Below, one piece after another: positions 9,989 to 57,102 of a stretch of DNA of 57,254 nucleotides (positions are counted from its first letter, which is position 1; every line of letters begins with the position of its first letter). The notes beneath the pieces are model-generated. The model saw only the letters and a program-made list of their open reading frames with translations. It was not told where the DNA came from and ran no database searches. The position numbers were made by a program, and so were the translations under genes. Source of the stretch: a virus; IMG/VR virus record IMGVR_UViG_3300042344_000496, positions 1-57,254 of that record; one strand, 5' to 3'.

Positions 9989-9993
9989 ATATT

Positions 9994-10000
9994 TATTTAG
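9994..10000 (-). promoter_or_regulatory. Late promoter box CTAAATA before the tube gene
   Basis: CTAAATA on the minus strand with a five-base gap (AATAT) to ATG 9988. Same box and spacing as before the sheath gene. Confidence 0.65.
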
Positions 10001-10022
10001 TTAAAAGTTATATTTAATATTA

Positions 10023-12833
10023 TTATCCACCAATTAATTCACTGAATGAAGTAGCGGTTGAGGTTGCATAGAAGTTCACCAAGATAAACTCTGATGTTCT
10101 TACTGGCTTGATATAAATATCAACAACAAGTTCATTTTGATCAATTACAGATGCTGGATTGTTTCGATCATCACATACAATTTCGTATTCATTAATACCA
10201 CTATCATTTCTAGCTAGATCAAATATTGGTTTTAGTGTATTTACTAATCTAGAACGTGTGAATGTTGTATTAGGTTCGAATACAAAGTATCTTGTAGTTC
10301 TCTTAGTAGCTTTTTGTAAGAAGATGAACAATCTACGAACATTGATACGATCAAATGCACTTGGTTGTCTTAACATTGTCTTCTGACCGAAGATATTGAA
10401 TCCATCACCGGGGAAGAATGCTACTGGATTTACCGCAATCTTATACAGTGAATCACGTTCTTTTTGTTTAGGCATCAATGCAATATCTAATACATTGGTA
10501 ACTTTACCTCTGGTGAAACCAGCTGGAGCATACCAAGGTTGGAAGTTTTGATCCATAGCTGCCATATCAGCTGCTGCCCATGCTGAGAATGGAATCCATA
10601 CTCTTGTACTTGAGAAAGGATCAGATACCTTAACCCAGTTAGCATATGTACAAACATAACTTGAATTAGCAGCTGCAAATAGGTTCTTCAATGGATTATA
10701 AACATGTGATGAGAATGTTTTTGTCTTATCATCTAATGTTTTGCTATTAGCTCCAGTGACAAATATATGTCTTAGAGGATCAGCAATAAACATACAATCT
10801 TTTCTTAATGAAGAACAGAATCCATCAAACTTATTATAAATTGTTCTATAATAATCGGTTATCTTATTTGAAGTGAATGAATCACCAGCGAGTGCTGCTA
10901 ATTCAGCTTTGAAAGTTACGCTCATTTGATCATCATCAAAGTATGATTTTGATTCATCAATCACACCATTAACTTCTGCATTAAGTCTTGAAGCTGTGTA
11001 GACAGTAGTTAAACCAGCATCTAAAACTAAGCTAACATCAAATAATTCTTCGTTTTCAATCTTTCTTAATACTCTGTCTAATTTATAATCAAGAGCACCA
11101 ATTGTTTTCTTGCTGTTGCTTAATGAGGAATATACACCGATTGGGAATACGTAATCAGCATTAGCATATTTTAGAGAATTTTGTGATAAAACAACAGAAC
11201 TTGAAGAAGCTATGAGTTTTTGTCTGATTAAATCAACTTCTTGAGTAGTAAACCCAACTCTTGCTGCAATAGCATTTGAGCTTGCGCTTAAACGATTAAC
11301 TAGTGAATTACCAAGTACACGAACTTTCTTTTTAGGAATGTTTTGAGCATCAGTCCATGGTCCTTGATTCTTTCCATTAATGAAAGAGTTTGTCATGATG
11401 ACAACATTATTTGAACCAGAAACTACATTATCCAAATAGAATGATCTTGGAAGACCTCCGCTAATTGAATTGATTTGTCTATGATAGTCTAATGATGCTA
11501 CATAATATTCTTCAGTGAAATAATCTAATTGAACTGAAGTTGGAGCGTATGGACTTGTTCTGAGCTTAAATAAACCAAATCCAAGAATATCATCGAAAGT
11601 ATTTTCAACCAAATCACTGAATTGGAAGGTTAAGTTTTCTAGGGTTTCTGATAATGATTTGGTTCCACCTCTATTAGAACTATCAGAAACCTTGAATGCT
11701 AACTTAGTATCAATAACTGGTGTTAATGCACTAGCAGGAGCACCTAGAGTTCCTAATTCTGAAACGTTAGTATAAACTCCACCGATTGTATCGTGATTTG
11801 TTGAAGGTTGTAAATTGGTATTATCAATTAATCCCAAATAATGACCTTCCCATCTACCATTAATTGTAGATTGAATTTTATTTAAGATAATTAAACCAGC
11901 ACTACCAAAATCAGAAATTCCATTAATTTCATTAACACCTTTAGCTACTGAAGAGAAATCACCACCAGCAAATGCTGAACGATCTACAACGCTTTGATAT
12001 TCGTCAATAGTAAGTTCGAAGAACTTAGGAGCACCTAATACATAAGTGCAATTAGTATTATCAGCATCAACGTCTAGATCTTGGTGTACTTCAATATCAT
12101 TAGATCTCCAATATGTATCAATTCTTGTATACAGTGTATTAAGATCATCAACCCAATCATTTAAAACAGTTAAAGCCGAACCAGTAGGTAATACACCACC
12201 AGTATAATATGTAGAATCTTGTAAATTATCTCTAAGATTTTTAACAGCTTCGCGTAGAAGATCACCATCTGCTACTGCGATTTTTCTGTTTTGAGCAACA
12301 ATACCGTTTGTTACTAAATCAGTAGATGAATTTAAATCTGTAACAGTAATAGCATTTAAATCTCCATCAAAATCAATCATCAACTTCTTAACAGATGGTA
12401 CTGTTACATCATCTGCTAATAGAGAAAGTAAAGCAGTTGGGGTTGTAAAAACAGATTTATCAACATCATATAATCTATAAACGACTGTTGATTTCTTTTC
12501 TGCTACTACAACAGGATATACTAATGCACCATATTTTGAACCATATCCTTCACCAGTTCCTTCACCATATGGTAATCTTGTTGAATATAATGTTGCAGCA
12601 GGAACACTTAAAATTTGTCTTGCACTATGATAGAAATATCTTTCTGCCGAATTGGTAGGAGTTCCATAAACTTGCTCCAATTCTTGTACTGATGTTATTT
12701 GTAGAATTTCGTCGGTTGGACCTTTCGCAGCAAAACCAGCCATGAAAATATTTGTTCCTGCTGGGATTGATGGAGATAATGATAAATCCTTCTCTGTAAT
12801 TTCTACTCCGGGTGATTGAATTGATCTTGCCAT
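10023..12833 (-). CDS. gp18: Tail sheath protein, T4 gp18-like
   Basis: 936 residues, longer than T4 gp18 (659); the extra length lies in the middle, where sheath proteins carry surface domains. The N-terminus SIQSPGVEITEKDLS and the C-terminus ending FILVNFYATSTATSFSELIGG (last conserved strand plus FSELIGG) are typical of contractile sheath proteins. It forms the contracting outer tail cylinder. The order terminase, small tube-fold gene, sheath, tube resembles T4 17-18-19. CTAAATA five bases before the ATG supports this start and late expression. The short minus-strand frame at 10487-10678 is a shadow. Confidence 0.93.
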   Translation of the reverse strand: MARSIQSPGVEITEKDLSLSPSIPAGTNIFMAGFAAKGPTDEILQITSVQELEQVYGTPTNSAERYFYHSARQILSVPAATLYSTRLPYGEGTGEGYGSKYGALVYPVVVAEKKSTVVYRLYDVDKSVFTTPTALLSLLADDVTVPSVKKLMIDFDGDLNAITVTDLNSSTDLVTNGIVAQNRKIAVADGDLLREAVKNLRDNLQDSTYYTGGVLPTGSALTVLNDWVDDLNTLYTRIDTYWRSNDIEVHQDLDVDADNTNCTYVLGAPKFFELTIDEYQSVVDRSAFAGGDFSSVAKGVNEINGISDFGSAGLIILNKIQSTINGRWEGHYLGLIDNTNLQPSTNHDTIGGVYTNVSELGTLGAPASALTPVIDTKLAFKVSDSSNRGGTKSLSETLENLTFQFSDLVENTFDDILGFGLFKLRTSPYAPTSVQLDYFTEEYYVASLDYHRQINSISGGLPRSFYLDNVVSGSNNVVIMTNSFINGKNQGPWTDAQNIPKKKVRVLGNSLVNRLSASSNAIAARVGFTTQEVDLIRQKLIASSSSVVLSQNSLKYANADYVFPIGVYSSLSNSKKTIGALDYKLDRVLRKIENEELFDVSLVLDAGLTTVYTASRLNAEVNGVIDESKSYFDDDQMSVTFKAELAALAGDSFTSNKITDYYRTIYNKFDGFCSSLRKDCMFIADPLRHIFVTGANSKTLDDKTKTFSSHVYNPLKNLFAAANSSYVCTYANWVKVSDPFSSTRVWIPFSAWAAADMAAMDQNFQPWYAPAGFTRGKVTNVLDIALMPKQKERDSLYKIAVNPVAFFPGDGFNIFGQKTMLRQPSAFDRINVRRLFIFLQKATKRTTRYFVFEPNTTFTRSRLVNTLKPIFDLARNDSGINEYEIVCDDRNNPASVIDQNELVVDIYIKPVRTSEFILVNFYATSTATSFSELIGG

Positions 12834-15217: not shown

Positions 15218-15823
15218 ATGGCTAAAAATTCATTATTCGATCAATTATTCAATCAAGTTATCAGCGAACAGTCTGGTTTAGGACCAGATATGGGCGGTGC
15301 TCCTGACATGGGTGGTGCTCCATCCATGGATGATGATGCCGCTGAATTAGGTGTAGATACCGAAGGTGGTGAAGGAGAAGAAGGTGGCGATGACACCGTA
15401 ACACTCACACTTTCAAAGGGTCTAGCACAAGAACTCATGGAAGTATTAAAGGGTGTTGTTGGTGAAGAAGGAGGAGAAGAAGAAGGTGGTGAAGAAGGTG
15501 AAGGTGAAGGTGAAGAGGGTGGAGAAGGCGAAGAAGAAGGAGGAGAAGAAGAAGGTAGTTCAGCAATGGGTGAATCTCCAGCAGTTGAAACCATGGAAGA
15601 ACTTCCAGTTGATAAGTATGTAAAAGCAATGCAAAGCAGAAACCAAAGAGTACAAGGTTCAGCAACTAATGCTACCAATGCTCATGGTAATGCAAGTGGT
15701 GAAGTAACCAAGCCACATGGTCTTCAAAAGATGAATATGTCTTATGATGATGGAAAGAGCATGAAGGCAAAGACCAGCGAATATGGTGTTTCTGGAAAAG
15801 GTAAAAATATTCTCAATCGTTAA
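15218..15823 (+). CDS. Glu/Gly-rich acidic late protein, candidate prohead core or internal protein
   Basis: 201 residues. The N-terminus MAKNSLFDQLFNQVISEQSG resembles a T4 capsid-targeting sequence with a cleavage-like I-S-E site. Next come repeats of the type DMGGAPSM, then a 40-residue run of almost only Glu and Gly (about residues 85-125), then a polar, basic C-terminus (KPHGLQKMNMSYDDGKSMK). Acidic core proteins such as T4 gp67 line the prohead and are degraded by the protease; that role is inference. A perfect late promoter and a downstream terminator make it a single-gene transcript. The minus-strand Ser/Pro frames across it are shadows. Confidence 0.8.
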   Translation: MAKNSLFDQLFNQVISEQSGLGPDMGGAPDMGGAPSMDDDAAELGVDTEGGEGEEGGDDTVTLTLSKGLAQELMEVLKGVVGEEGGEEEGGEEGEGEGEEGGEGEEEGGEEEGSSAMGESPAVETMEELPVDKYVKAMQSRNQRVQGSATNATNAHGNASGEVTKPHGLQKMNMSYDDGKSMKAKTSEYGVSGKGKNILNR

Positions 15824-15849
15824 GTAAAATAAATCCATATACAAACTAA

Positions 15850-15875
15850 GGGATGTCGAAAGACATCCCTTTTTT
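15850..15875 (+). terminator. Rho-independent terminator
   Basis: GGGATGTC, loop GAAA, GACATCCC, then six T. An 8-bp perfect stem with a GNRA-type loop and U tract, 27 bases after the stop of the acidic gene. Confidence 0.93.
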
Positions 15876-15876
15876 G

Positions 15877-15883
15877 TTAAATA
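15877..15883 (+). promoter_or_regulatory. Late promoter box TTAAATA directly after a terminator
   Basis: TTAAATA followed by five bases (ATATT) and then GTG 15889. It begins two bases after the U tract of the previous terminator, so it starts a separate transcript and sets the GTG start. Confidence 0.65.
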
Positions 15884-15888
15884 ATATT

Positions 15889-16263
15889 GTGCAAACATTT
15901 TTAGAGTATTTTTATTCGGAACAAATGAATCCCTTCATATCACCAGAAGGGAATAAAAAATTATTGAATAAAAGAAAAGCTGAAACACCTCATCATAGAA
16001 CTGATAGAAGATTAACACATAGAGGAGTTACATTTAGAAATGGAAAAGAAGAGGGTTCTAATATTGTTGCTAGTAGATATAAACAAGGTGATCATAACTT
16101 TAAACCAAAGTTAGCTTCTGGAGTTATACCAATTCAAAAAGCTATTGAGATGACTCAAAAATCTAATGTAAATTTACCAGAGAATGGTAAAAGTGTAAGA
16201 TTGAGGAAAGGTGAATACGAAATATCAAATAACAACGGAATTTATAATCTAAGGAAAATTTAG
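15889..16263 (+). CDS. Small basic late protein with capsid-targeting-like N-terminus (GTG start)
   Basis: 124 residues. The frame is open further upstream, but an ATG at 15853 lies inside the terminator stem and cannot be the start. GTG 15889 lies five bases after a late box and gives MQTFLEYFYSEQMNPF, strikingly like the T4 capsid-targeting sequence MKTYQEFIAE. The alternative ATG 15925 would lose this segment and would have no late box at the usual distance. The rest is basic and His/Arg-rich (PHHRTDRRLTHRGVTF), which would suit a DNA-associated internal protein; that is inference. I know no named homologue. Confidence 0.7.
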   Translation: MQTFLEYFYSEQMNPFISPEGNKKLLNKRKAETPHHRTDRRLTHRGVTFRNGKEEGSNIVASRYKQGDHNFKPKLASGVIPIQKAIEMTQKSNVNLPENGKSVRLRKGEYEISNNNGIYNLRKI

Positions 16264-16264
16264 A

Positions 16265-16271
16265 TTAAATA
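16265..16271 (+). promoter_or_regulatory. Late promoter box TTAAATA before the neck gene
   Basis: TTAAATA with a five-base gap (ATTAT) to ATG 16277. It overlaps the space just after the previous stop (TAG 16261-16263). Confidence 0.6.
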
Positions 16272-16276
16272 ATTAT

Positions 16277-17206
16277 ATGCCTTGCTATTTTTATTCTGGT
16301 GCTGGAAATGGGGGACGATGTGCTGAATTATACGATAAATTAAGCTTGGCACCTGATTTACAAGTCATAAAGTCTGCTGCGGAAGAAATGGTTCAACTTC
16401 TTGGACAAAAAGTTAATTACTATGTTAATATGACAACTCCATTAAGTTCTGATACTTTTTATGGAGAACAACCAACTGCTGGGTTTCATGGTCCAAAACA
16501 AATGAAAATGATGATTGAATTAAATGAATCATCTCTTTCATTAAGTAACTATGGATTCAATCAGGATGATGAGATAACAGCATATCTAACGTTCGAAACT
16601 TTCGTAAGTTCATTTTCTGGAGATGGTATTTATACGGCATTAAATCAAAATATGGAACCAAAAAGTGGTGATGTATTTTGTATGTTTGAGTACGGAAATG
16701 ATAGAGTGAATGGTAGGAGTGGAAACTTTTTTGAGATTACTCAAAGAAGAGATCAAGATGTAGGTGGAAATAATTTAAATCCATTAGGGGGACATTATGG
16801 ATGGGAAATTAAAGCCAAACGTATGGAATACTCATGGCAACCCGGATTACCACAAGAAACTGTCAATCAACAGATGACAGAAGATACTTTCTATGGGAAG
16901 CTTGCAAGTACTCTTCCAATGGAAGAAAAATCTGGAGGCAAATTCTATGCTGGTAGTGCTGATCAATTCAGTAAACAGAATATTATTGATATGAACTTCA
17001 ATGATACTCATGTTTATGGTACATATGACTTAAGCACAGATGATGATGGTCCAATTGGAGCAAGACCACAAAGAATGATTGATATCGTAGATAACGAAGA
17101 ATTACTTGGAAAATATATTGAAGGTGAAGTTAAGGAAGCAATTCTTGAAATTGATGATAACTTCATCATCAAGGGTGTTGACCAAATCGATTCTGGTTCT
17201 TTCTAA
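16277..17206 (+). CDS. gp14: Neck protein, T4 gp14-like
   Basis: 309 residues (T4 gp14 256). The first half carries the gp14-type layout: GQKVNYYVNMTTPLSSDTFYG, then EQPTAGFHGPKQMKMMIE, then strands up to ITAYLTFETF, and later FEITQRRDQDVGG. gp14 sits in the neck between portal and tail and helps stabilise packaged heads. A late box precedes it. The stop overlaps the stop of the convergent Ig gene by three bases with no terminator between. Fold and role are from recognition of the pattern; a homology search would confirm. Confidence 0.65.
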   Translation: MPCYFYSGAGNGGRCAELYDKLSLAPDLQVIKSAAEEMVQLLGQKVNYYVNMTTPLSSDTFYGEQPTAGFHGPKQMKMMIELNESSLSLSNYGFNQDDEITAYLTFETFVSSFSGDGIYTALNQNMEPKSGDVFCMFEYGNDRVNGRSGNFFEITQRRDQDVGGNNLNPLGGHYGWEIKAKRMEYSWQPGLPQETVNQQMTEDTFYGKLASTLPMEEKSGGKFYAGSADQFSKQNIIDMNFNDTHVYGTYDLSTDDDGPIGARPQRMIDIVDNEELLGKYIEGEVKEAILEIDDNFIIKGVDQIDSGSF

Positions 17207-18969: not shown

Positions 18970-21288
18970 ATGGCAGACATATGTACAAATTTTACAGTTC
19001 CTATCGATTTGAATCCAAAATTTGATATTATATGGTCTTTTGATTATTGTATTTTAGGTGAAGTAGATTCATCTGCTGGATTTACAACATTTCTCTATCA
19101 AAAAGGTGGAGACTTAAATCAAGGTGGTGAATATTCTTCATTAGGATATGGTCCAACTTCATCAAAACAAGGTATGAGTGGTGGTTATGTCTGTATAGCA
19201 TTAGATTCGGATGATCTTTTTTCAAAACCATTAAATAGACCAGCGTATGCACCATTTATAAAAAAACAACCAAGAAGTGGAACTGCTCCATTAGATTTAA
19301 CTGTAGAAGTTAAAGGAACTGCTCCATTAAGTTATCAATGGTATAGAAATGGTGATGCAATTCTGGGAGCAACAAATCCATCATATAGAGCATTAATAGA
19401 TGGAATGTATAGAGTACAAATCAGCAATTCTGTAGGCAGCATAAAATCTAATGAAGTATATGTTGTAGCATACCCATTTGTAAAAAGACAACCAATCGGT
19501 GGAGATTATCCCAAAACACTTTCTTTGGAATTAACTGGGACACCACCATTCGAATATCAATGGTATAAAAATGGTGTAGAAATTGATGAAGATGGCGACA
19601 AAGAAAATTTATTTACTTCAGAAGAAGGAGACTATAAAGTTAAAATAACTAATTTTGCTGGAAGTATTTTTTCAAATATTGCTACAGTAACAATTCCAAT
19701 AATATCACCAACAATACTAATACATCCTACTAATGGTTATCCTAATAAAACATTGACAGTTACAGCTAGTGGAACTGAACCATTTATATATGAATGGTAT
19801 AAAAATGGTGCATTAATATTTGGAGAATCTACATCTTCTTATAAAGCTACTGTTGAAGGACGATATAAAGTAAAAGTAAGTAATATATCAGGATTCCAAT
19901 ATTCAAATGATGCTCTCATAACAACTGCTCCAGTAGCCCCAACAATAACATTGCAACCAATAGGTGGTGAAGTTCCAATAGAACTTACTGTAAATGCTGT
20001 AGGAACTGCTCCATTAACGTATAAATGGATAAAGGATGACTTAATTACAGTAGGTAGTAATAAAAATTATCTAGCTACAGATGGTGCTAAATACAAAGTT
20101 GTAGTAAGTAATTTTGTCGGATCTGTGACTTCGAATTCTGTTGATGCTACTAACATACCACCATTACCAATAATTGTAACACATCCAGAAAGTGGTAATC
20201 TGCCAAAAGAATTGTATGTTGCAGCAACTAGCATTATCGACATAACATATCAATGGTATAAAAATGGAAATATAATTATCGGTGCTACAAATAACACATA
20301 TACACCAACAACTACAGGAACTTACAAAGTATCTGTAACAAATACTACTGGAACAGTTTATTCAAATGATGCAGTAGTTTCTCCAGCTGTTGCTGTAAGT
20401 ATAGTTTCATTTACTGGACCGGAATATTTTAATGAATCAGCAACTATAAATCCATCAGCAAATACTTATATAATAGAATTTGATAGATTAGTTAAACTTA
20501 AAGATAATAATTTTAAACAAGCATTTGCGGATAAAAATGTTAATGTTAAAAATATTATTCCAATAGATGCTTCTGGAGGGTTAGCAAAAAAATATAAAAT
20601 AGAAACCTTACGTTTAGATGAAAAGATACCATCTTATGGACTGTTAAATGTTAAAGAAGCTGAAATGACACCTACTAATAAATTTAAATTAGTGGCAAGT
20701 GACAAAATTAAAAATTTAAATGAAATAAATTTGAATTATAAAATTCATAATATACCACCAACTACATCTCCAAATATTGATCTATTAAATGTTGGATCAA
20801 ATAGTTTAATTAATTTAGGAAGCTGTATTAATAGTGATCACTACACAGATCCTTATATCAAAGGGCATTCTATAATTTTCATAAATACAACAAAATTAAA
20901 TTATCTATCAAAACTATCTAGATTTGATTCAGATGATAAAAAATCGACAACAATACTTTGGGAAGGTGTTTTCGAATATGATGGTAAAAATACAGAAGTT
21001 AATATGATTTGGGAATGTACAACATTCAAAGATTATCCATATAGATTTGAAATTAAAACACATCCTGAAAAATGGATTAAGAAAAAAATAGACGACAAAT
21101 ATCCACTAAATCAAATTAGGAAAACTGCTTCAGATGCAGCATATTTAAACTTTGATTTTGATGCTGGCAAATCTTATACAATAGAATATTGCTATTCAGT
21201 ATCAATACCAGAAAATATTTGCGAAGATCAATATGGCACTACAAATATTGCATACTCAAAAGCTGCAACATCTTTAGTTTTTAAATAG
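18970..21288 (+). CDS. Virion surface protein: lectin-like half domain plus five Ig-like domains
   Basis: 772 residues. Residues about 18-91 (KFDIIWSFDYCILGEVDSS, then LGYGP and CIALDSDDLFSKPLNRP) look like the first half of a lectin/concanavalin-like sandwich found in virion proteins of related phages. Five Ig-like domains follow at about 95-167, 170-243, 247-318, 323-393 and 399-471, each with a YxWYKNG-type core and YKVxVSN-type strand. Residues 480-772 form an unrecognised beta-rich domain. There is no signal peptide, so it is assembled from the cytoplasm onto the virion. The missing lectin half appears at the start of the next gene. Its own late promoter is perfect. Confidence 0.8.
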   Translation: MADICTNFTVPIDLNPKFDIIWSFDYCILGEVDSSAGFTTFLYQKGGDLNQGGEYSSLGYGPTSSKQGMSGGYVCIALDSDDLFSKPLNRPAYAPFIKKQPRSGTAPLDLTVEVKGTAPLSYQWYRNGDAILGATNPSYRALIDGMYRVQISNSVGSIKSNEVYVVAYPFVKRQPIGGDYPKTLSLELTGTPPFEYQWYKNGVEIDEDGDKENLFTSEEGDYKVKITNFAGSIFSNIATVTIPIISPTILIHPTNGYPNKTLTVTASGTEPFIYEWYKNGALIFGESTSSYKATVEGRYKVKVSNISGFQYSNDALITTAPVAPTITLQPIGGEVPIELTVNAVGTAPLTYKWIKDDLITVGSNKNYLATDGAKYKVVVSNFVGSVTSNSVDATNIPPLPIIVTHPESGNLPKELYVAATSIIDITYQWYKNGNIIIGATNNTYTPTTTGTYKVSVTNTTGTVYSNDAVVSPAVAVSIVSFTGPEYFNESATINPSANTYIIEFDRLVKLKDNNFKQAFADKNVNVKNIIPIDASGGLAKKYKIETLRLDEKIPSYGLLNVKEAEMTPTNKFKLVASDKIKNLNEINLNYKIHNIPPTTSPNIDLLNVGSNSLINLGSCINSDHYTDPYIKGHSIIFINTTKLNYLSKLSRFDSDDKKSTTILWEGVFEYDGKNTEVNMIWECTTFKDYPYRFEIKTHPEKWIKKKIDDKYPLNQIRKTASDAAYLNFDFDAGKSYTIEYCYSVSIPENICEDQYGTTNIAYSKAATSLVFK

Positions 21289-21303: not shown

Positions 21304-22176
21304 ATGCCTCCTTCATTAACCGTAAGAGCTAGAAGTATAGATGATGTTGATGATCCATTTCAACTCATAGAAACTAGCCCATTATCATCTTATGATATTA
21401 ATGGAATAACTAGGTCAGAAATATATACAAGATTGAAATTTTGTTTAACAGACTCTGGTAATACTCTATATCTTTATTTATTAGATAAAGGTACTAATGA
21501 ATACAATCTAATAAAACAAATAAAACCTAAAATGAATCTAGATTATGATCCATTAAATCCATTATTGTTAAATGTTGGATTTAGTTTTACCAGTCCATTG
21601 ATTACTGGTAGAAGTAGTGCCAAATGTTTTATTAAAAATGTTAATGTTCAAGGATTGAATAATACTTTAGTTAGTAGTTCATCATCATTTTCTACTCAAA
21701 ATGAAATAGAAGTTAAAACTAAACCATTGATTTTAATACATCCCATCGGAGGAAACTCTGCTAAAATGTTGACAACATTAGTTGTAGGAAGTGAACAAGT
21801 AAAATATAAATGGTATAAAAATAATGTTCTTATTGATGGAGCAGATTCTTCAAATTATTATGCTCAAGATTATGGGATATATAAATTAGTAGCTACTAAT
21901 TTAATGGGCAGTGTAACTTCAAATGAAGCAGAAATAAAGCAAATCGTCATCAATATTCCAACAATCATAACACAACCAACTGCTGGAACAACTCCAGCAT
22001 ATTTAACAGTAACAGCAGACGGAACTATGCCATTAAATTATCAATGGTATAAAGATAATATACCAGTACCATCTGGTAATTCTTCAACTCTTTATACAAA
22101 CGAAACAGGAAATTATTATGTAGTAGTATCTAATAGTGCTGGTAGTATTAATTCTAATACTGTGAATGTAACTTAA
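21304..22176 (+). CDS. Virion surface protein: second lectin-like half plus two Ig-like domains
   Basis: 290 residues. Residues 1-117 (PPSLTVRARSIDD, then YTRLKFCLTDSGNTLYLYLL, and VGFSFTSPL to NVNVQG) look like the second half of the same lectin-like sandwich that begins in the upstream gene. Two Ig-like domains follow at about 141-212 and 220-290, with KYKWYKNNVLI and NYQWYKDNIPV cores. It has its own late promoter. The two products could pair to rebuild one sandwich, or each half may be degenerate; both readings are inference. The stop is two bases from the stop of the convergent minus-strand gene. Confidence 0.75.
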   Translation: MPPSLTVRARSIDDVDDPFQLIETSPLSSYDINGITRSEIYTRLKFCLTDSGNTLYLYLLDKGTNEYNLIKQIKPKMNLDYDPLNPLLLNVGFSFTSPLITGRSSAKCFIKNVNVQGLNNTLVSSSSSFSTQNEIEVKTKPLILIHPIGGNSAKMLTTLVVGSEQVKYKWYKNNVLIDGADSSNYYAQDYGIYKLVATNLMGSVTSNEAEIKQIVINIPTIITQPTAGTTPAYLTVTADGTMPLNYQWYKDNIPVPSGNSSTLYTNETGNYYVVVSNSAGSINSNTVNVT

Positions 22177-35941: not shown

Positions 35942-37048
35942 TTACTGTTGTATGGTTTTTGTGTCGGTAATTATAAAACGATTAATATCTAATCCATTTC
36001 CAACATAATTTGAAACTATCATTTCATAGGAATTACCATCATTACCAATGATTGGTTTAAATGGATTATTAGATACTTTTGATAATACTTTTAAATTATT
36101 ATAATTTGATGTATATTTAGAAACAGAAAATGATACGTATTTTTTAATATAAGATAATTCTTGTATTGTCAAATCAGAAACATAAAACTCAGAAAAATCT
36201 GACACAGATAAATCACAATTCCTTAAACCAATTTCTCCATCATAATGAACAGTAACTGGTTCTGTTAATGTCCAGCCAACATAATTATTGATTAAACTTT
36301 TAACAGGAAATCCAATACAACGATTCAAAACCTTTTGAGAAGTTACTTCATAATTGAGATCTATAGTATTACTAGTTATAATCCCATTATCACTATAAAT
36401 TTTAACATAGTAAGAAGCTAGATCTCCTTGTTGTAAAAAATCTATTTTGAAGTAGTTCTTTTTAGTTGTCGTAAACAATTCCCCATTCTTATACCATTCA
36501 TAGTAAGTTGAATCCGTAATATTTTTAACAACTACATCAAATGTAATTGAATCATTAACTTCGAACTTATCTACATATAATGGATACGTCAAGAAACTTA
36601 CCAGTTTAGGAGCAGTATTTGCTGCAACTTCTTGTGTAGGTGGATTAGAGCTTAAGTATATTGTTTCTGAAATTGCTTCTCCAAATATATTGGAAACTTT
36701 TAAATAATAATTCCCTACATTATTAATATTGAATGAATCTATAATTAATACCTTTTCATTTGAAATAGTATTATATTTGAATATCCATTCATAATTTAAT
36801 TCTGGAAATCCACTAACTAAAGGTGTTATGGTAACATAAGAATTATCCTCTATGTATGAAGGATAGACTTCTAATCCACATATAGTAGGATACGCGGATT
36901 CTATGGAACTAAGTTTGGCAAATAAATAATTTGATAGATCGTCTACAGCAGTTTTAAATATTACTGAACCCCTTTCAACAAAGGTATTGATATCCATAGA
37001 CGAAGTATCTATGGAATCATAATCTTCTATGAGTCTATCATCTGCCAT
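35942..37048 (-). CDS. Virion-associated protein with two Ig-like domains
   Basis: 368 residues. The first 50 residues are acidic and helical (possible attachment segment). Ig-like domains lie at about 55-132 (LNYEWIFKYNT and YYLKVSNIFGEA) and 145-232 (TYYEWYKNGELF and SYYVKIYSDNG). The C-terminal 130 residues form an unrecognised beta-rich domain. TTAAATA five bases before the ATG shows late expression although it sits between early genes. It is probably a surface or fibre accessory; the target is unknown. Confidence 0.75.
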   Translation of the reverse strand: MADDRLIEDYDSIDTSSMDINTFVERGSVIFKTAVDDLSNYLFAKLSSIESAYPTICGLEVYPSYIEDNSYVTITPLVSGFPELNYEWIFKYNTISNEKVLIIDSFNINNVGNYYLKVSNIFGEAISETIYLSSNPPTQEVAANTAPKLVSFLTYPLYVDKFEVNDSITFDVVVKNITDSTYYEWYKNGELFTTTKKNYFKIDFLQQGDLASYYVKIYSDNGIITSNTIDLNYEVTSQKVLNRCIGFPVKSLINNYVGWTLTEPVTVHYDGEIGLRNCDLSVSDFSEFYVSDLTIQELSYIKKYVSFSVSKYTSNYNNLKVLSKVSNNPFKPIIGNDGNSYEMIVSNYVGNGLDINRFIITDTKTIQQ

Positions 37049-50103: not shown

Positions 50104-50664
50104 ATGACTTCTAAGATAACGTTTATTATACCTTCAGTTAATAGACCATCTTTAAAAAACACTTTACGTTCATTAGTAAAACAAACCAATCCTAATTGGG
50201 AATGTATAGTAATTTATGATGGTGTTGATGGGCCAAGATTTGATGATGATAGAATAAAAATAATCAAACATGAAAAGCTTGGTTTATTTGGTCCAGCTAA
50301 TGGACAGGCTGGTTTAGTTAGAAATGTTGGTATTAAAGAAGCTAAAACTGAATGGATAGGATTTTTAGATGACGATGATTCTATAAATGAAAATTATGTT
50401 GAAACATTGTTTTCGAAGTATGTTGATAATGATTTTGTTGTTTGGAGAATGAAATATAGCAATGGGTTGGTTTTACCACCATTTGAATTAAATGAGTTAG
50501 TTTTTGCTACCGTTGGAATTTCATTTTGTTATAAAAATAAATTCGATGGACTTCTATTTGAAAGAAATAGAGATGGTGAAGATTTTGATTTTTTAACCAA
50601 ATTAAAAGATCTTAGTAAAAACTATATTATCGCTCCAGAAGTATATTATAACGTTAGACATTAA
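50104..50664 (+). CDS. Glycosyltransferase family 2
   Basis: 186 residues, a compact GT-A catalytic domain. TFIIPSVNRPSLKNTLRSL is the GT2 opening strand and nucleotide site, CIVIYDGVDGPRFDD the second, GQAGLVRNVGIKEA the third, and EWIGFLDDDDSINENY the DxD metal site. It lacks the C-terminal extension of larger GT2 enzymes. Start of the glycan cassette; next gene two bases away. Donor and acceptor unknown. Confidence 0.85.
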   Translation: MTSKITFIIPSVNRPSLKNTLRSLVKQTNPNWECIVIYDGVDGPRFDDDRIKIIKHEKLGLFGPANGQAGLVRNVGIKEAKTEWIGFLDDDDSINENYVETLFSKYVDNDFVVWRMKYSNGLVLPPFELNELVFATVGISFCYKNKFDGLLFERNRDGEDFDFLTKLKDLSKNYIIAPEVYYNVRH

Positions 50665-50666
50665 TT

Positions 50667-51299
50667 ATGAAATTCTTTGAAAATTTCGATAAAGTTTATT
50701 GTATAAATTTGGATAGAAGATATGATAGATTTCTTAAATTCAAACAATGTATTGAAAAATATGATTTAGGTGAGTTTGAGAGAATATCCGCTGTTGATGG
50801 GGGGTATTTAAATCCTAGAGAATATAATTCTTCTCTTAAAAATGGAGAATTAGGTCTTCTATTAACGAATGAGAAAATATTACTTAATGCTAAAGCTAAC
50901 AATTATTCTTCAATTCTTATATTAGAGGATGATTGTACATTTACGGATGATATTTTAAATTATAAAAATCTTTTGGGATTCTTACCAAAAGATTGGGATA
51001 TGTATTATATGGGTGGCAATCATAATACACACATGGGGTTGCCAATTCCACCATTTGTTAATGAACGAGTTATTAAAATATCTAATACATATTCTACACA
51101 TTTCGTAGCTATAAAAAATAGTATATATGATGATGTTATTTCTCTGATTAAAATGTATAAGTATCCATTAGACGTTGCATACACTGCTATACAAAAAAGT
51201 AAAAATGTATATTGTTATTATCCCGGAATGGCTAAACAAATTTCAGATTTTTCAGATATTCAAAACATGACAACAGATTATGATTGGTTGATTAAATGA
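50667..51299 (+). CDS. Glycosyltransferase family 25
   Basis: 210 residues. KVYCINLDRRYDRFLKFKQC and FERISAVDGG are the GT25 opening; LGLLLTNEKILLNA and SILILEDDCTFTDD hold the conserved acidic site; THFVAIKNSIYD comes later. GT25 enzymes add galactose or related sugars to lipooligosaccharide or collagen-type acceptors. Cassette gene, two bases after GT2. Confidence 0.88.
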   Translation: MKFFENFDKVYCINLDRRYDRFLKFKQCIEKYDLGEFERISAVDGGYLNPREYNSSLKNGELGLLLTNEKILLNAKANNYSSILILEDDCTFTDDILNYKNLLGFLPKDWDMYYMGGNHNTHMGLPIPPFVNERVIKISNTYSTHFVAIKNSIYDDVISLIKMYKYPLDVAYTAIQKSKNVYCYYPGMAKQISDFSDIQNMTTDYDWLIK

Positions 51300-51308
51300 C
51301 TTATAACT

Positions 51309-52019
51309 ATGAATATAGGATTATTGATAATTTGCACTGGTAGGTATAATATTTTTTTGAATAGTTTATATGAATCTTGCGAGAAACATTTTTTACCTAA
51401 ACATAAAAAAACGTATTATGTATTCACCGAGGGAGATGTTCCGATTAATGAAAATGTAATTAAAATATATCAAGAATATATGGGATTTCCTAATGATACG
51501 CTTAAAAGATTTCATTTATTTCATAAGAATAACAATCTTCTTGGAAGAGAAGATTATTTATTTTTTTTAAATGCTAATATGTTATGCGTATCTGAAATTA
51601 ATGAGGAAATCATCCCATCACAAAATAATGATAATTTAATGGCTGTAAATCATCCCGGCTTTTACAATAAAAGTAATCTGGATTTTACGTATGAAAGGAA
51701 TATATCATCTAATTTTTATATACCTATTGGACAGGGTAAACATTATTATCAGGGATGTTTTAATGGTGGATCTTCTACCGAATTTTTAAAAATGTCTTAT
51801 CAATTATCTAAGTTGATTGATGAGGACGAGATGAAAGGAATTATACCTATTTGGTGGGATGAATCTGCATTAAATTGGTATCTTAGGGATAGAAATCCTC
51901 TATTAATAAATTCTGGATATGCTTATCCAGAAGGATGGGAATTACCAATGGATAAAAAAATTATTCAAAGAGATAAAAATAAACATGGTGGGTATAATTA
52001 CTTAAGAAAGATTATATAA
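51309..52019 (+). CDS. Glycosyltransferase family 6 (ABO / alpha-1,3-Gal(NAc) transferase type), NxN form
   Basis: 236 residues. GT6 features in order: YYVFTEGDVP, EDYLFFLNANMLCVSEI, VNHPGFY, YYQGCFNGGSSTEFLKM and PIWWDESALNWYL. The DxD metal motif of animal GT6 enzymes is N88-A89-N90 here (51570-51578), as in the bacterial GT6 group reported to work without metal (for example from Bacteroides ovatus). It probably adds Gal or GalNAc in alpha-1,3 linkage, often next to an alpha-1,2-fucose; the GT11 gene two genes on would provide that kind of substrate (inference). No signal anchor, so cytoplasmic. Confidence 0.87.
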   Translation: MNIGLLIICTGRYNIFLNSLYESCEKHFLPKHKKTYYVFTEGDVPINENVIKIYQEYMGFPNDTLKRFHLFHKNNNLLGREDYLFFLNANMLCVSEINEEIIPSQNNDNLMAVNHPGFYNKSNLDFTYERNISSNFYIPIGQGKHYYQGCFNGGSSTEFLKMSYQLSKLIDEDEMKGIIPIWWDESALNWYLRDRNPLLINSGYAYPEGWELPMDKKIIQRDKNKHGGYNYLRKII

Positions 52020-52022
52020 TAT

Positions 52023-52640
52023 ATGGGAATTTCAAACATTTTATATCCATTATTTTTAAAAGATTTAGAAGAAATCCAAAAACCATTACGTGAATGTAAT
52101 TTAATTGAATTAGGGATACAAGAAAATATACAAACAGGAAATTTTATTAGAAATGAATTGAAAGATTCTTTTAAGCAATATTTGAGTTTAGATTTACATG
52201 AAATTGATGGTGTTACTAAATGTGATCTTTCTCAATACGATCCAGAGAAATATAATTGCGATATCATTACAAATTTTGGAACTAGTGAACATGTAGAATA
52301 TGAAGATGGACAATATAATTGTTGGTTGAATATTCATTCGTGGTTAAAAGTTGGCGGGATTTCAATACATGAAATACCAAAAATAAATAATTGGTCTGGT
52401 CATTGTAGATATTATTGCGATTTTTCATTTTTTCAAAAATTCCAAAATTTTGGATATTCTATTATAAAATTGCAAGATAATTACTATCAATCTAATGGTT
52501 CTTTGGTGTATTGTGTATTAAAAAAGATTGAAGATGTAAATTTTATGGATAAAAAATCATTTTTCGAATCTATTATCATTGATAATAATATTAATCTATC
52601 GTCAATTAATAAATTAAACAATCCTAAAAATTTGATGTAA
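52023..52640 (+). CDS. Class I SAM-dependent methyltransferase-like protein
   Basis: 205 residues. The Rossmann-type pattern is weak at the N-terminus (CNLIELGIQENIQTG), then YLSLDLHEIDGVTKCDLSQY, DIITNFGTSEHVE and LKVGGISIHEIP (motifs II-IV and the post-core strand). An unusual NWSGHCRYYCDFSFF follows. It probably methylates a sugar or a small substrate in the same glycan. It starts three bases after GT6. The family is assigned at fold level only. Confidence 0.7.
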   Translation: MGISNILYPLFLKDLEEIQKPLRECNLIELGIQENIQTGNFIRNELKDSFKQYLSLDLHEIDGVTKCDLSQYDPEKYNCDIITNFGTSEHVEYEDGQYNCWLNIHSWLKVGGISIHEIPKINNWSGHCRYYCDFSFFQKFQNFGYSIIKLQDNYYQSNGSLVYCVLKKIEDVNFMDKKSFFESIIIDNNINLSSINKLNNPKNLM

Positions 52641-52644
52641 TATT

Positions 52645-53247
52645 ATGGAAATAGTAATTAAAGAACACACATTGTTTTCAGAACTTTTTAATGATGAACT
52701 AGTCATAATTGATTTGGGAGCATGTAGAGGAGAATTTATAGAAAAAATTAATGAAATGTTTAATGTAAAAAAAGCAATTTTAGTGGAAGCCAATCCTACT
52801 AATTATTCTAAATTAATTCGTAGAAATAATTATATTCTTTATAATAATGCTATTTCTGATATAAATGGATCTAGTATTATATTTTATGAAGATGAGAAAT
52901 CTCCTTATAATGGATCGTATGTTTTTAATTATTTTTCGGGTAAACCACATGATATTAAAACAATAACTTTGGAGCAAATTTTTATTGATAATAATATAGA
53001 TTATGTTGACATATTGAAAGTTGATATTGAAGGTGCTGAATATGATTTATTAAATTCTATTTCTGATGAAATATATTCTAAAATAAAACAACTTACTATA
53101 GAATTTCATGATTTTATAGACTCCTCTTATAAACAAAAAACGAATGATATAATTCGTAAATTAAACTCTTTAGGTTTTAAACATAAGTCTAAACCTATCA
53201 ATTATATGAATAATTCGGAAAATTATGATGTAATTTTTTATAGATAA
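52645..53247 (+). CDS. FkbM-family methyltransferase
   Basis: 200 residues. VIIDLGACRGEFIEKIN is the SAM-binding glycine motif, KKAILVEANPTNYSKL the acidic second motif, NNAISDINGSSIIFY and KTITLEQIF then YVDILKVDIEGAEYDLL the FkbM hallmark. FkbM enzymes O-methylate sugars or polyketides. Methylation may cap the phage-directed glycan. Confidence 0.88.
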   Translation: MEIVIKEHTLFSELFNDELVIIDLGACRGEFIEKINEMFNVKKAILVEANPTNYSKLIRRNNYILYNNAISDINGSSIIFYEDEKSPYNGSYVFNYFSGKPHDIKTITLEQIFIDNNIDYVDILKVDIEGAEYDLLNSISDEIYSKIKQLTIEFHDFIDSSYKQKTNDIIRKLNSLGFKHKSKPINYMNNSENYDVIFYR

Positions 53248-53248
53248 T

Positions 53249-54037
53249 ATGAGTAAACATATAATTTATTCTGAATTGAAGGGTGGCTTGGGGAATATGT
53301 TATTTCAAATAGCTGCTGCTGTTTCATTAGGTATTGAACAAAATAAGGAAGTAATCTTTATAGATTCTACTCATCAAGGAACTATCCATAAAAGTGTAAA
53401 TTTTTATTTTGATAATATTTTTAGAAAGCTAAAGTTTTCCAATGTAATTTATGAAAACATTTTTTATTCTGAACAAAATTTTTCATATCAAAAAATACCA
53501 AATGTTAATAATAACATTAGATTGAATGGATACTTTCAGAGTGAAAAATATTTTCTACCAGTTAAGCAACAAATATTAGATTTATTTTCTATGGATGTAG
53601 AATCTAAGAAATTTATATCTGATAAATATTTTGAATTTAACTTCGATGATTTTTGTTCCATTCATGTTAGAAGAGGTGACTATTTAAAGTATCCAAATAT
53701 CCATCCTGTTTGTGAACTTAATTATTATACACAATGTGTATCTAATATAAACTCTAAAAATTTATTTATATTTTCTGATGATATAGATTGGTGTATGTCT
53801 AACTTTGATTTTAAAGATAAAAACGTATTCTTTTCTTCAGAAAATAGAGATTATATAGATTTGTGGATTATGTCATTGTGTAGAGAGAATATTATTGCGA
53901 ATTCCACATTTTCTTGGTGGGGGGCTTGGCTTAATAAGCATGAACATAAAAAAGTGTTTTATCCAAAGAGGTGGTTTGGATCTTCTATAAATCATGATAC
54001 TAAAGATTTGTGTCCTAATGATTGGATAAGTGTATAA
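53249..54037 (+). CDS. Alpha-1,2-fucosyltransferase-type enzyme (GT11)
   Basis: 262 residues. GGLGNMLFQIAAAVSLG (about 11-27) opens the GT11 fold; FCSIHVRRGDYLKYPNIHP carries the HxRRGD nucleotide-sugar motif; NSTFSWWGAWLN is the third hallmark. It transfers L-fucose, or in some bacteria a fucose-like sugar such as colitose, from its GDP form. The next three genes make GDP-linked sugars, so donor and transferase are encoded together. Confidence 0.92.
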   Translation: MSKHIIYSELKGGLGNMLFQIAAAVSLGIEQNKEVIFIDSTHQGTIHKSVNFYFDNIFRKLKFSNVIYENIFYSEQNFSYQKIPNVNNNIRLNGYFQSEKYFLPVKQQILDLFSMDVESKKFISDKYFEFNFDDFCSIHVRRGDYLKYPNIHPVCELNYYTQCVSNINSKNLFIFSDDIDWCMSNFDFKDKNVFFSSENRDYIDLWIMSLCRENIIANSTFSWWGAWLNKHEHKKVFYPKRWFGSSINHDTKDLCPNDWISV

Positions 54038-54040
54038 TTT

Positions 54041-54964
54041 ATGAAAATTTTAATTACTGGAGCTTATGGTATGGTTGGATCTTCTCTTAGGAAAATATTA
54101 GGAATAGATCATATCTATCATAATAGAAAAGCAGCTGATCTTCTTAATAAAGAAGAAACCGAGAGATATATTACTAATAGTGTTTTAAACTTAGGTGTTG
54201 ATACTATAATTCATTGTGCTGCAAAAGTTGGTGGTGTGCAAGCCAATTCGTCAAATAATGAAACATTTTTTATTGAAAATTACATTATTAATAATAATGT
54301 AATAGATGCTGCTCTTAAAAATAAAGTTAAAAATTTTGTAAATCTTTCTTCTACTTGTATATTTCCAAACGAAAATATAACATATCCATTAACCGCAGAT
54401 CAAATAGATGTAGGTAAACCACACATATCCAATCATGGTTATTCTTATGCAAAAAGAATCTCTGGATATCAAACTAAGAGTATTCGATTAATGACTGGAT
54501 TAAATTGGATTACTGTTGTTCCAACAAATGTATATGGTCCAAATGATAACTTCAATCCAAACTACAGTCACATTATACCCGGTATAATAATGCGTGCTTA
54601 TAATTGTAAAAAGAATAATGAAAAATTAGTTGTTTGGGGTGATGGGAGTCCATTAAGACAATTTATACATACTGATGATTTAGCGAAAAACATTCTTTGG
54701 GCTATTGAAAATTGGAATTCTGAAATTCCATTTATGGCTATAAATGAAAAGGAGTATTCTGTTATGGATGTAGTTAAAAATGTAGCAGATGCTTTTAAAA
54801 TTAATCGAAATGATTTAATTTTCGATTCGACAAAACCTAGCGGACAATTTAGGAAACCAGCTAAAACGGATATTCCAGATAGTTATAAATTTATTGAATT
54901 AAAGGATGGATTGACAAGCACCATAGAATGGGTAAATTCAAATTATAACTTTATAAGAAAATGA
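54041..54964 (+). CDS. fcl: GDP-L-fucose synthase / GDP-L-colitose synthase-type epimerase-reductase
   Basis: 307 residues. Short-chain dehydrogenase fold: ILITGAYGMVGSSL NADP site; AAKVGGVQANS; catalytic Ser/Cys in NLSSTCIFP (S104, C106), YSYAK (Y134, K138) and His177 in NYSHIIPG, all matching E. coli Fcl positions. It epimerises C3/C5 (or C5 alone) and reduces C4 of GDP-4-keto-6-deoxymannose, giving GDP-L-fucose; the ColC homologue does the same on the 3-deoxy form. Motifs cannot tell the two apart. It overlaps the ColD-like gene by four bases. Confidence 0.9.
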   Translation: MKILITGAYGMVGSSLRKILGIDHIYHNRKAADLLNKEETERYITNSVLNLGVDTIIHCAAKVGGVQANSSNNETFFIENYIINNNVIDAALKNKVKNFVNLSSTCIFPNENITYPLTADQIDVGKPHISNHGYSYAKRISGYQTKSIRLMTGLNWITVVPTNVYGPNDNFNPNYSHIIPGIIMRAYNCKKNNEKLVVWGDGSPLRQFIHTDDLAKNILWAIENWNSEIPFMAINEKEYSVMDVVKNVADAFKINRNDLIFDSTKPSGQFRKPAKTDIPDSYKFIELKDGLTSTIEWVNSNYNFIRK

Positions 54965-56121
54965 AAAAAATTGATCTGGTTCAAGACACTATAGATAATA
55001 AAGATATAGACAATCTCATAGAATGGCTTAAAACATATCCTCGTCTAACTAAAGGACCAAAAACATTAGAGTTTGAAAGTAAATGGTCTGAATGGTTGGG
55101 AACCAAATATTCAGTATTTGTAAATTCTGGATCGTCGGCAAATTTGATGATGATATATTCTTTGAAAGTTTTAAATAAACTTAAAAACAATAAGATATGT
55201 GTACCATCTTTATGTTGGGCTACAGACTTAGCTCCAGTTCTTCAATTTGATTTACAACCAATATTAATAGATTGTAATTTAGAAAATCTATCTGTTGATA
55301 TTAATCACTTAGAAAAAGTATTCATTGAAGAATCTCCATCAGTATTAATTTTAGTTTCTGTATTGGGGTTATCTCCTGATATGAATAAGATTGTAGAATT
55401 GTGTAAAAAGTATGATGTAATCCTTTTAGAAGATAATTGTGAATCTCAAGGAACTAAATTCAATAATATTAAACTTGGAAATTTTGGTCTGATGTCTTCG
55501 TTCTCTACATATTTTGGTCATACTATGTCTACGATTGAAGGAGGGATGATTTGTACAAATAATCATGAAATATATGAAACATTACTTCAACTGAGAAGTC
55601 ATGGATGGGATAGAGATTTGTCCAAAGAGACTCAACTTAATCTTAGAAGTGAATGGGGTGTTTCGAATTTTTCGGCATTATATACTTTTTATATACCCGG
55701 GTTTAATTTAAGAAGTACTGATTTACAAGCTCATATTGGTTTGAGGCAATTGGATAAGGTTGACGATATGATTGAAAAAAGATTTTTGAATTTTTTATCT
55801 TACAAATCTATATTAGAAAATAGAGTTTGGTTTCCTAAAACATTTAAAAATGAATACACCTCAAATTTTGCTATACCAGTTATTACTGATACAATAGAAC
55901 AAAAAAATAAATTAATTGAATTACTTAATAAAAATGAAGTAGCATCTAGACCATTAATATCTGGATCTATGGGGACTCAGCCATTTTATAAAAGAAAATA
56001 CGGCGAATACATTTTGCCTAATTGTTCTATTGTCGATGATAGAGGTATATATGTTCCAAATCATGATAAAATGAATAAAGAAGATGTTGAAAAAATTTGT
56101 TCTTTAATACTTAGTGTTTAA
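54961..56121 (+). CDS. colD: ColD-type GDP-4-keto-6-deoxymannose 3-dehydratase (DegT fold, Lys to His)
   Basis: 386 residues, DegT/DnrJ/EryC1 fold type I PLP enzyme: VNSGSSANLMMI, VPSLCWATDLAPVL, ILLEDNCESQGTKFNN, then FSTYFGHTMSTIEGG. In sugar aminotransferases this last motif has the PLP-binding Lys six residues before EGG; here it is His187 (55519-55521). That is the ColD signature: the histidine serves as the base and the enzyme removes the 3-hydroxyl with glutamate as amino donor. LRSHGWDRDL and PGFNLRSTDLQAHIG also match ColD as I remember it. With Gmd upstream in the pathway the product would be GDP-4-keto-3,6-dideoxymannose. Confidence 0.87.
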   Translation: MKKIDLVQDTIDNKDIDNLIEWLKTYPRLTKGPKTLEFESKWSEWLGTKYSVFVNSGSSANLMMIYSLKVLNKLKNNKICVPSLCWATDLAPVLQFDLQPILIDCNLENLSVDINHLEKVFIEESPSVLILVSVLGLSPDMNKIVELCKKYDVILLEDNCESQGTKFNNIKLGNFGLMSSFSTYFGHTMSTIEGGMICTNNHEIYETLLQLRSHGWDRDLSKETQLNLRSEWGVSNFSALYTFYIPGFNLRSTDLQAHIGLRQLDKVDDMIEKRFLNFLSYKSILENRVWFPKTFKNEYTSNFAIPVITDTIEQKNKLIELLNKNEVASRPLISGSMGTQPFYKRKYGEYILPNCSIVDDRGIYVPNHDKMNKEDVEKICSLILSV

Positions 56122-56124
56122 TTT

Positions 56125-57102
56125 ATGGATAAGAAAGTTGCATTAATAACTGGAATAAATGGTCAGGATGGTTCATATCTTTCCGAATTACTTTTGGAAA
56201 ATGGTTATGAAGTTCATGGCGTTTTAAAGAGAAACTCCATTTCAGAAAATCAAACTGCTAGAATCGACCATTTAATGGACAAAATTAATTTACATTATGG
56301 TGATTTGACTGATATATCATCTTTGATGTCTATTATTAAAAGATCCAATCCAGCAGAAATATATAATTTAGCGGCACAATCACATGTGAGAATTTCATTC
56401 GAACAACCCATTTATACAGCTAATGTTACTGGATTGGGAACATTAAATCTATTGGAATCTGTTAGATTAACTAATGATAAGATAAAAATTTATCAAGCTT
56501 CTTCTTCTGAGATGTTTGGAAACAGTATAGATTCTGATGGGTTTCAAAGAGAAACAACACCGCTCAATCCAGTATCACCATATGGATGTTCTAAAGTTTT
56601 TTCATACAATATATGTAGAAACTATAGGAATTCTTACAACATGTTTATTTCAAATGGAATACTTTTTAATCATGAGTCTCCAAGAAGAGGCACAAATTTT
56701 GTGACAAACAAAGTTTGTAAAGAAGCTGTAAAAATAAAATTAGGTTTATCTAAAAATCTTAAGTTAGGCAATTTAAATGCAACTAGAGATTGGGGTCATG
56801 CTAAAGATTATGTTAAAGCTATGATGGCGATTCTGCAATTGGAACATTCTGATGATTATGTGTGTTCTACAGGTATATCTCATTCTGTAAGAGATTTGTG
56901 TGAATATGTTTTCTCATCTTTAAATATGGATTATAATTTTTATGTCACCTTAGATGAAAAATTTTTAAGACCAGAAGAATTACACGATTTGAAAGGAGAT
57001 TGTAGTAAACTTAAAATAGCTACTGGATGGAAACCAGAATATTCATTCGAACAAATGTTGGATGAAATGATAGCTCATTGGATGGATTTGTATAAGAAAT
57101 AA
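56125..57102 (+). CDS. gmd: GDP-mannose 4,6-dehydratase
   Basis: 325 residues, shorter than E. coli Gmd (373), as in other phage forms. ALITGINGQDGSYLSELLLE is the NADP motif; IYNLAAQSHVRISFEQP and ASSSEMFGN (with Glu129) precede SPYGCSK (Tyr153, Lys157); LFNHESPRRGTNFV and NLNATRDWGHAKDYV are typical Gmd. It converts GDP-mannose to GDP-4-keto-6-deoxymannose, the substrate of both the Fcl-type and ColD-type neighbours. Last gene of the cassette; three bases after ColD. Confidence 0.95.
   Translation: MDKKVALITGINGQDGSYLSELLLENGYEVHGVLKRNSISENQTARIDHLMDKINLHYGDLTDISSLMSIIKRSNPAEIYNLAAQSHVRISFEQPIYTANVTGLGTLNLLESVRLTNDKIKIYQASSSEMFGNSIDSDGFQRETTPLNPVSPYGCSKVFSYNICRNYRNSYNMFISNGILFNHESPRRGTNFVTNKVCKEAVKIKLGLSKNLKLGNLNATRDWGHAKDYVKAMMAILQLEHSDDYVCSTGISHSVRDLCEYVFSSLNMDYNFYVTLDEKFLRPEELHDLKGDCSKLKIATGWKPEYSFEQMLDEMIAHWMDLYKK

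Follow-up and report, generated by a model that had tools for sequence, protein, structure and literature searches.

Organization of the sugar locus

The window examined here, 57,254 bases in length, is the entire IMG/VR virus record IMGVR_UViG_3300042344_000496, which may be a fragment. At nt 50104–57102, nine plus-strand genes lie head to tail in the order GT2, GT25-like, GT6, unknown, FkbM, GT11, Fcl-type, DegT-type and Gmd (GT, glycosyltransferase; Gmd, GDP-mannose 4,6-dehydratase; Table 1). The last four (nt 53249–57102) are adjacent and intact at the positions given in the initial annotation, and all are supported by Pfam matches; the start of the DegT-type gene overlaps the stop of fcl in an ATGA at nt 54961–54964. 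In the DegT-fold protein, His187 occupies the site of the lysine that holds pyridoxal 5'-phosphate (PLP) and aligns with His188 of Escherichia coli ColD. These features suggest, with a probability of about 0.62, that the phage encodes the steps specific to making a GDP-linked 3,6-dideoxyhexose, leading through GDP-L-colitose to attachment of the sugar by the GT11 enzyme.

Table 1. Genes of the nine-gene run in the window and the matches on which their labels rest
Feature	Coordinates (nt)	Strand	Match
gmd, GDP-mannose 4,6-dehydratase	56125..57102	+	PF16363 (GDP_Man_Dehyd), E 5.5e-117
Putative ColD-type nucleotide-sugar 3-dehydratase (His187)	54961..56121	+	DegT_DnrJ_EryC1 PF01041, E 4.6e-62; ColD 2gms
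Fcl/GMER-type epimerase/4-reductase, proposed GDP-L-colitose and/or GDP-L-fucose step	54041..54964	+	Epimerase PF01370, E 1e-41
GT11 glycosyltransferase (fucosyl-/colitosyltransferase family)	53249..54037	+	PF01531, E 1.9e-25; phrog_2644
FkbM-family methyltransferase, possibly same operon	52645..53247	+	PF05050, E 4.2e-15; TIGR01444, 69 bits (cut-off 37.7)
Unknown protein, same gene run	52023..52640	+	No Pfam/PHROG match at E 0.001
GT6-family glycosyltransferase	51309..52019	+	PF03414, E 1.6e-27
GT25-like glycosyltransferase, below Pfam cut-off	50667..51299	+	PF01755, 21.6 bits (cut-off 24); phrog_2835
GT2-family glycosyltransferase	50104..50664	+	PF00535, E 1.2e-15

The DegT-fold protein as a probable ColD-type enzyme

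Sequence search against the Protein Data Bank (PDB) gave E. coli ColD (2gms) as the best match of the DegT-fold protein (E 1.3e-55), followed by RfbH/E1 (6e-33), PseC (2.3e-28) and GDP-perosamine synthase (5.3e-27). ColD has a histidine in place of the lysine, lacks an iron-sulfur cluster and runs a glutamate-driven cycle through pyridoxamine 5'-phosphate (PMP), according to an excerpt of a review (PMC8987622). RfbH/E1, a CDP-4-keto-6-deoxyglucose 3-dehydratase working with the reductase E3 (same excerpt), shares with the window protein the DegT fold and the histidine at the lysine site, but its [2Fe-2S] cysteines are, judging from the alignment, absent from the window protein, which has a Cys at only one of the eight RfbH Cys columns, where ColD too has one. 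At 35 columns separating ColD and three orthologs from three RfbH rows, the window protein agreed with ColD at 15, with RfbH at 4 and with neither at 16.

An AF2 model built from 46 aligned relatives had a predicted local distance difference test score (pLDDT) of 94.4. In VIA-align 2, four ColD entries ranked first (Z 49.1–50.0), the best with Z 50.0, a root-mean-square deviation of 1.9 and 374 aligned residues, and were followed by E1 (46.7), a metagenome sugar transaminase (46.1), PseC (45.5) and perosamine synthase (45.3). The fold is common to the whole family, so that it says little by itself and the placement rests on the residues and the tree. In a tree of 112 rows made by a quick method, from which seven near-identical viral rows had been dropped beforehand, the window protein fell on the ColD side (97% SH-aLRT), the RfbH group was split off (99%), and all 10 rows with a lysine lay outside both. 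Phylogeny, model and missing cysteines agree with the ColD-type dehydratase call of the initial annotation.

Conservation of the histidine was followed in viral relatives. The first viral scan was unbiased in this respect, since the histidine lay outside all six of its peptide patterns, and the residue was kept in 18 of 18 loci (L002–L019; 11 after near-identical loci were dropped). The patterns of the second viral scan and of the genome scan contained GH, so that His counts from both are biased; among the matches listed in the second viral scan, a relative with an E-value no higher than 1e-3 was encoded by 578 of 600 stretches, of which the best 80 were retained. The two scans together gave 98 viral loci, four of which (L167, L169, L187 and L188) were re-fetched from the contigs of L006, L007, L012 and L013. 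These loci reduced to 75 different ColD sequences, and for 56 of the 75 the flanks reached 3.4 kb or more in both directions. His was present in all 75, part of which had been fetched with the GH pattern; among 20 further positions, chosen from columns conserved in earlier alignments, 19 were invariant in 76 rows and one was kept in 75. The ratio of nonsynonymous to synonymous divergence (dN/dS) of colD was 0.05 to 0.13 in the six computable pairs, in all of which dS was at least 1.7 and thus near saturation. By its residues and its place in the tree, the DegT-fold protein is very likely a 3-dehydratase.

Partner enzymes and the proposed pathway

Gmd scored 391.3 bits with TIGR01472, just below the NCBIfam equivalog cut-off of 415, so that this threshold was not passed, and possessed the motifs SSSE at position 126 and YxxxK at 153. 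The Fcl-like protein matched human GDP-L-fucose synthase best in the PDB (E 6.2e-56) and, at 188.5 bits, stayed below the cut-off of 500 for the NCBIfam Fcl equivalog NF047922. Its positions aligned with human GFUS are kept, namely the STC stretch at 104–106, Y134, K138 and H177, presumably the catalytic positions that the initial annotation had described as complete. The GT11 protein passed the gathering score of PF01531 (90.2 bits, cut-off 23.9). Some GT11 enzymes do transfer colitose, as the initial annotation stated: excerpts of two papers describe WbgN of E. coli O55 as an alpha-1,2-colitosyltransferase that also accepts GDP-fucose (PMC12723683, PMC11987014), and one of them reports that human FUT2, likewise GT11, accepts GDP-colitose (PMC11987014). 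Since such enzymes take both donors, the window GT11 is compatible with colitose but is no proof of it.

The Fcl tree comprised 62 rows (66 minus 4 from near-identical viral loci), rows being omitted that scored less than 100 bits against the window Fcl or aligned with it over fewer than 230 residues; nearly all rows came from loci found with a ColD query, and Fcl lineages living without ColD are not readable from it. The window protein grouped with L002, L003, human GDP-fucose synthase and a jumbo-phage gene (L023), within 8 kb of which neither Gmd nor ColD was matched. On the same side, five bacterial genes (L031, L032, L034, L035 and L036) directly adjoin ColD-type genes, so that the window type of Fcl does accompany ColD elsewhere. 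The Fcl proteins found with ColD at viral loci belong to at least three lineages, that is, the window type, that of L011 and L018, and the remainder, indicating that the partner has been exchanged.

Gmd bears on the nucleotide of the substrate. Labels at viral and cellular loci were taken from the best BLAST match among window and relative proteins, by which another short-chain dehydrogenase/reductase (SDR) could be labelled Gmd or Fcl. Among the 56 viral loci with full flanks, Gmd was found at 43, Fcl at 42, both at 36, GT11 at 23, and all three at 19; a Gmd match of at least 41% identity lay within 10 kb at 32 of 80 cellular loci. Two open frames from archaeal metagenome-assembled genomes, at loci that the tree places on the side of ColD, fuse the two enzymes in both orders, ColD-Gmd in L090 (nt 9992–12445, 818 amino acids) and Gmd-ColD in L097 (nt 8885–11233, 783 amino acids), which is good evidence that enzymes of this type use the product of Gmd. 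At E 1e-60, an ortholog of E. coli ColD was detected in 11 genomes out of 274, and a gmd-fcl-colD run was seen in three (L116, L117 and L122) of the eight stretches fetched around them. A GDP sugar is likely to be the substrate, and our confidence, already considerable from the adjacency of Gmd, was raised slightly by the fusions.

In the proposed route, Gmd would convert host GDP-mannose to GDP-4-keto-6-deoxymannose, from which the DegT-fold protein, using PMP and having histidine rather than lysine as its base, would remove the C3 hydroxyl to give GDP-4-keto-3,6-dideoxymannose; the protein would be left with PLP, and glutamate would restore the PMP form. Next, the Fcl-type enzyme would epimerize C5 and reduce C4, yielding GDP-L-colitose, and GT11 would attach the sugar to a phage- or host-surface glycan together with the upstream GT2, GT25-like and GT6 enzymes and the FkbM methyltransferase. 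Colitose is somewhat favored as an end product; as the donor actually used by GT11 it stands slightly short of even odds. No flippase, polymerase or initiating transferase was recognized among the nine cluster genes with Pfam and PHROGs, as might be expected if a protein or core oligosaccharide were glycosylated directly in the cytoplasm.

Several observations weigh against the proposed pathway. Foldseek, ranked by E-value, placed five ColD chains in the lead and PseC sixth, in the midst of the ColD chains, with both PseC and perosamine synthase ahead of E1. Little weight attaches to the residue preceding the histidine: it is Gly186 in the window protein, the PDB holds an S187N/H188K double mutant of ColD, which we take to be the change giving aminotransferase activity, and Asn occurs there in only two of the 10 lysine rows. 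E. coli ColD forms an early long branch in the tree and shares only about 30–32% identity with the window protein; a position on the ColD side is well supported by the sequences, but orthology to ColD is not. The window Fcl was split (100/98) from the Fcl-like genes beside E. coli ColD orthologs (L116 and L122, also L120 and L121), so that the label "ColC-type" of the initial annotation is not supported as it stands, and the protein may be an Fcl of the ordinary kind, used for the one sugar or the other. The donor choice of GT11 is not readable from its sequence; donor overlap in GT11 and the Fcl placement weaken a colitose-only reading, and the end sugar may be colitose, fucose or both. No ManC-type or phosphomannomutase-type match was found in the window record, itself possibly a fragment, and supply of GDP-mannose by the host is therefore assumed. 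Nearby Gmd was missing at 13 and Fcl at 14 of the 56 full-flank viral loci, the gmd-fcl-colD run was missing from five of the eight ColD-ortholog stretches, and 48 of the 80 cellular loci had no strong Gmd nearby. Among the genomes of those 48, gmd was above the cut-off in 33 and had no match above it in 15, and a CDP-glucose pyrophosphorylase was above the cut-off in six; these tallies are weak because both families also give matches below the cut-off in nearly all genomes.

The alternative that survives best, albeit an unlikely one, is a branched supply, in which an ordinary Fcl and the ColD-like enzyme compete for one 4-keto intermediate, the Fcl accepts both substrates, and GDP-fucose and GDP-colitose are made, with GT11 using either. 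It would account for the grouping of the Fcl-like protein with human GDP-fucose synthase, for the single Fcl-type gene among the nine and, judging from WbgN and FUT2, for the acceptance of both donors by GT11; however, the ColD-like enzyme would drain the intermediate, and the overlap of the fcl and DegT genes suggests one route. Far less probable is that the DegT-fold enzyme acts as a 3-dehydratase on a different nucleotide sugar, linked to CDP as with RfbH/E1 or dTDP as with SpnQ. The 48 cellular relatives lacking a strong gmd nearby, the six of their genomes with a CDP-glucose pyrophosphorylase, and the rank of E1 as the next solved enzyme behind ColD in VIA-align 2 would suit it, but the RfbH cysteines are absent, the tree places the protein on the side of ColD, Gmd adjoins it in the window, lies near most viral relatives and is fused to ColD at two archaeal loci, and no CDP-glucose pyrophosphorylase match was found in the window record. 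Slightly less probable still is an aminotransferase or inactive relative, as the family name in Pfam and PHROGs would have it, against the histidine in every distinct viral sequence, the near-complete constancy of the 20 further positions and the lysine rows lying outside the ColD and RfbH groups.

Genome context and related viral gene sets

T4-type genes were spread along the record, encoding a large terminase, tail sheath, DNA polymerase, UvsX-like recombinase, helicases, SbcC-like nuclease, PhoH and gp32. With the terminase, tail sheath, polymerase, UvsX-like and gp32 genes present, that is, phage replication and structural genes throughout the 57,254 bases, bacterial contamination is unlikely and was rejected. 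Compared with phage records, all 2,599 matches of the terminase were below 60% identity, the best among the 15 listed sharing 37.6%, and the DNA polymerase shared 29.5% to 30.4% identity with the 15 listed of 2,575 matches; the matches listed for the two were mostly cyanophages, plus one Pseudoalteromonas phage and one Pelagibacter phage. Hoc-like matches were observed at nt 18970–21288, and Ig-domain matches at nt 21304–22176 (above the cut-off) and 35942–37048 (below it). Within the nine-gene run, the protein of nt 52023–52640 appeared methyltransferase-like by eye, and past gmd an open frame from nt 57141, by eye possibly a T4-type replication gene, runs off the end of the record (nt 57254).

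Viral rows on the ColD side of the tree sit in three places, one being the IMG/VR group that includes the window, one S-CAM7/ACG-2014f and one the jumbo phage LR756502, suggesting that a colD-like gene was probably acquired by viruses more than once. The nearest relatives (L002, L003 and L124–L130) share 45% to 50% identity with the window in GT11, 73% to 78% in colD and, where present, 76% to 79% in gmd. Between L124 and L125, colD (near nt 4001–5152) is near-identical (dN 0.001, dS 0) and the gmd, fcl and GT11 genes beside it differ (dS 0.2–0.35), as after local recombination. LR756502 carries a second His-type DegT enzyme of the RfbH type (L021, nt 15484–16803) about 6 kb from the ColD-type one, and the Fcl-like gene of L017 (nt 9124–10080) lies in two separate frames, by a real break or a sequence error.

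A short, divergent, putative SDR of about 260 amino acids, designated X268 (e.g. L005, nt 4023–4826), precedes colD in 22 of the 98 viral loci, its frame touching or overlapping that of colD in 14 and leaving a gap of 330–343 bases in eight. Sequence searches gave no classification, with no Pfam or PDB match; an alignment of 13 sequences (A3) contained an invariant Thr and YxxSK, and a model (pLDDT 87.3) matched SDR enzymes including GDP-mannose 4,6-dehydratase and GDP-4-keto-6-deoxymannose reductase. X268 is present at L005–L010, where BLAST with the window Fcl found no Fcl, and Fcl was missing at five of the nine full-flank X268 loci versus nine of the 47 others (Fisher p 0.035, in a test chosen post hoc). 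On the strength of the model, X268 may possibly be an alternative 4-ketoreductase, and one may conjecture that a plain reductase in place of the epimerase/reductase would give a D-configured 3,6-dideoxyhexose. A broader and more doubtful proposal is that of an exchangeable phage module, in which a core of Gmd and the ColD-type enzyme would be completed by a final enzyme that can be swapped (Fcl, of which there are at least three lineages, or X268), an epimerase leading to L-colitose and a plain reductase to a D-sugar such as GDP-tyvelose, so that one phage would differ from another in its GDP-linked 3,6-dideoxyhexose and surface glycans would thereby be varied. To our knowledge, GDP-tyvelose is not known as a GDP sugar.

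Among 50,697 phage records, the window DegT-fold protein was matched in 71, of which 54 were Synechococcus phages. In the cultured Synechococcus phages S-CAM7 (KU686212) and ACG-2014f (NC_026927), gmd, fcl, a DegT gene with the histidine at the equivalent site and GT11 are consecutive, as the four functions are adjacent in the window, and a tail fiber gene lies 3.5–7 kb downstream of the sugar set. Unlike in the window, the gene order is different, the DegT proteins (31% and 35% identical to that of the window) form a separate branch, and the Fcl belongs to another lineage. The histidine was verified in one S-CAM7 record, one ACG-2014f record and LR756502; matches were also obtained in other records of S-CAM7 and ACG-2014f and in S-H68, S-B05, S-B43 and RN05-S. 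The cyanophage DegT proteins are annotated as "putative CDP-4-keto-6-deoxy-D-glucose-3-dehydrase" or "aminotransferase". Similar gene sets are present but unrecognized in many viral sequences, including cultured cyanophages, and that of the window is not unique.

In E. coli O55/O111 and Yersinia pseudotuberculosis, GDP-colitose is made by Gmd, ColD and ColC, to which O55 adds the GT11 enzyme WbgN. This pathway shares with the window set Gmd, a 3-dehydratase that has the histidine and lacks [2Fe-2S] cysteines, an enzyme of the Fcl fold and a GT11, but the window set lies in a phage genome, its ColD-like protein is about 31% identical, its Fcl stands apart from the ColC candidates, and the record has no match of the two GDP-mannose supply types. 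Cyanophage sugar-gene papers, as excerpted, describe GDP-fucose genes (PMC9602691, PMC10665884); that on cyanophage S-SCSM1 (PMC9602691) reports Gmd and Fcl-type genes with fucosyltransferase-family enzymes, as in the window, whereas "dehydrase", "aminotransferase" and "colitose" are absent from its main text. The view that a complete dideoxysugar branch in a phage had not been described holds in that no account of colitose or a 3-dehydratase as a phage gene was found in titles and abstract starts of the papers listed from open-licence PubMed Central, but not in that the same four functions lie in the S-CAM7 and ACG-2014f records, one annotated as a 3-dehydrase. The chemistry of the initial annotation was largely right, its uniqueness not.

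If the proposal is true, phages would themselves make a rare class of sugars familiar from bacterial O-antigens, dozens of phage records would have their annotations corrected, and ColD-type enzymes, together with possible alternative reductases, would become available in large numbers. The cultured phages S-CAM7 and ACG-2014f make the proposal directly testable, and, if true, it would bear on why phages carry sugar genes.

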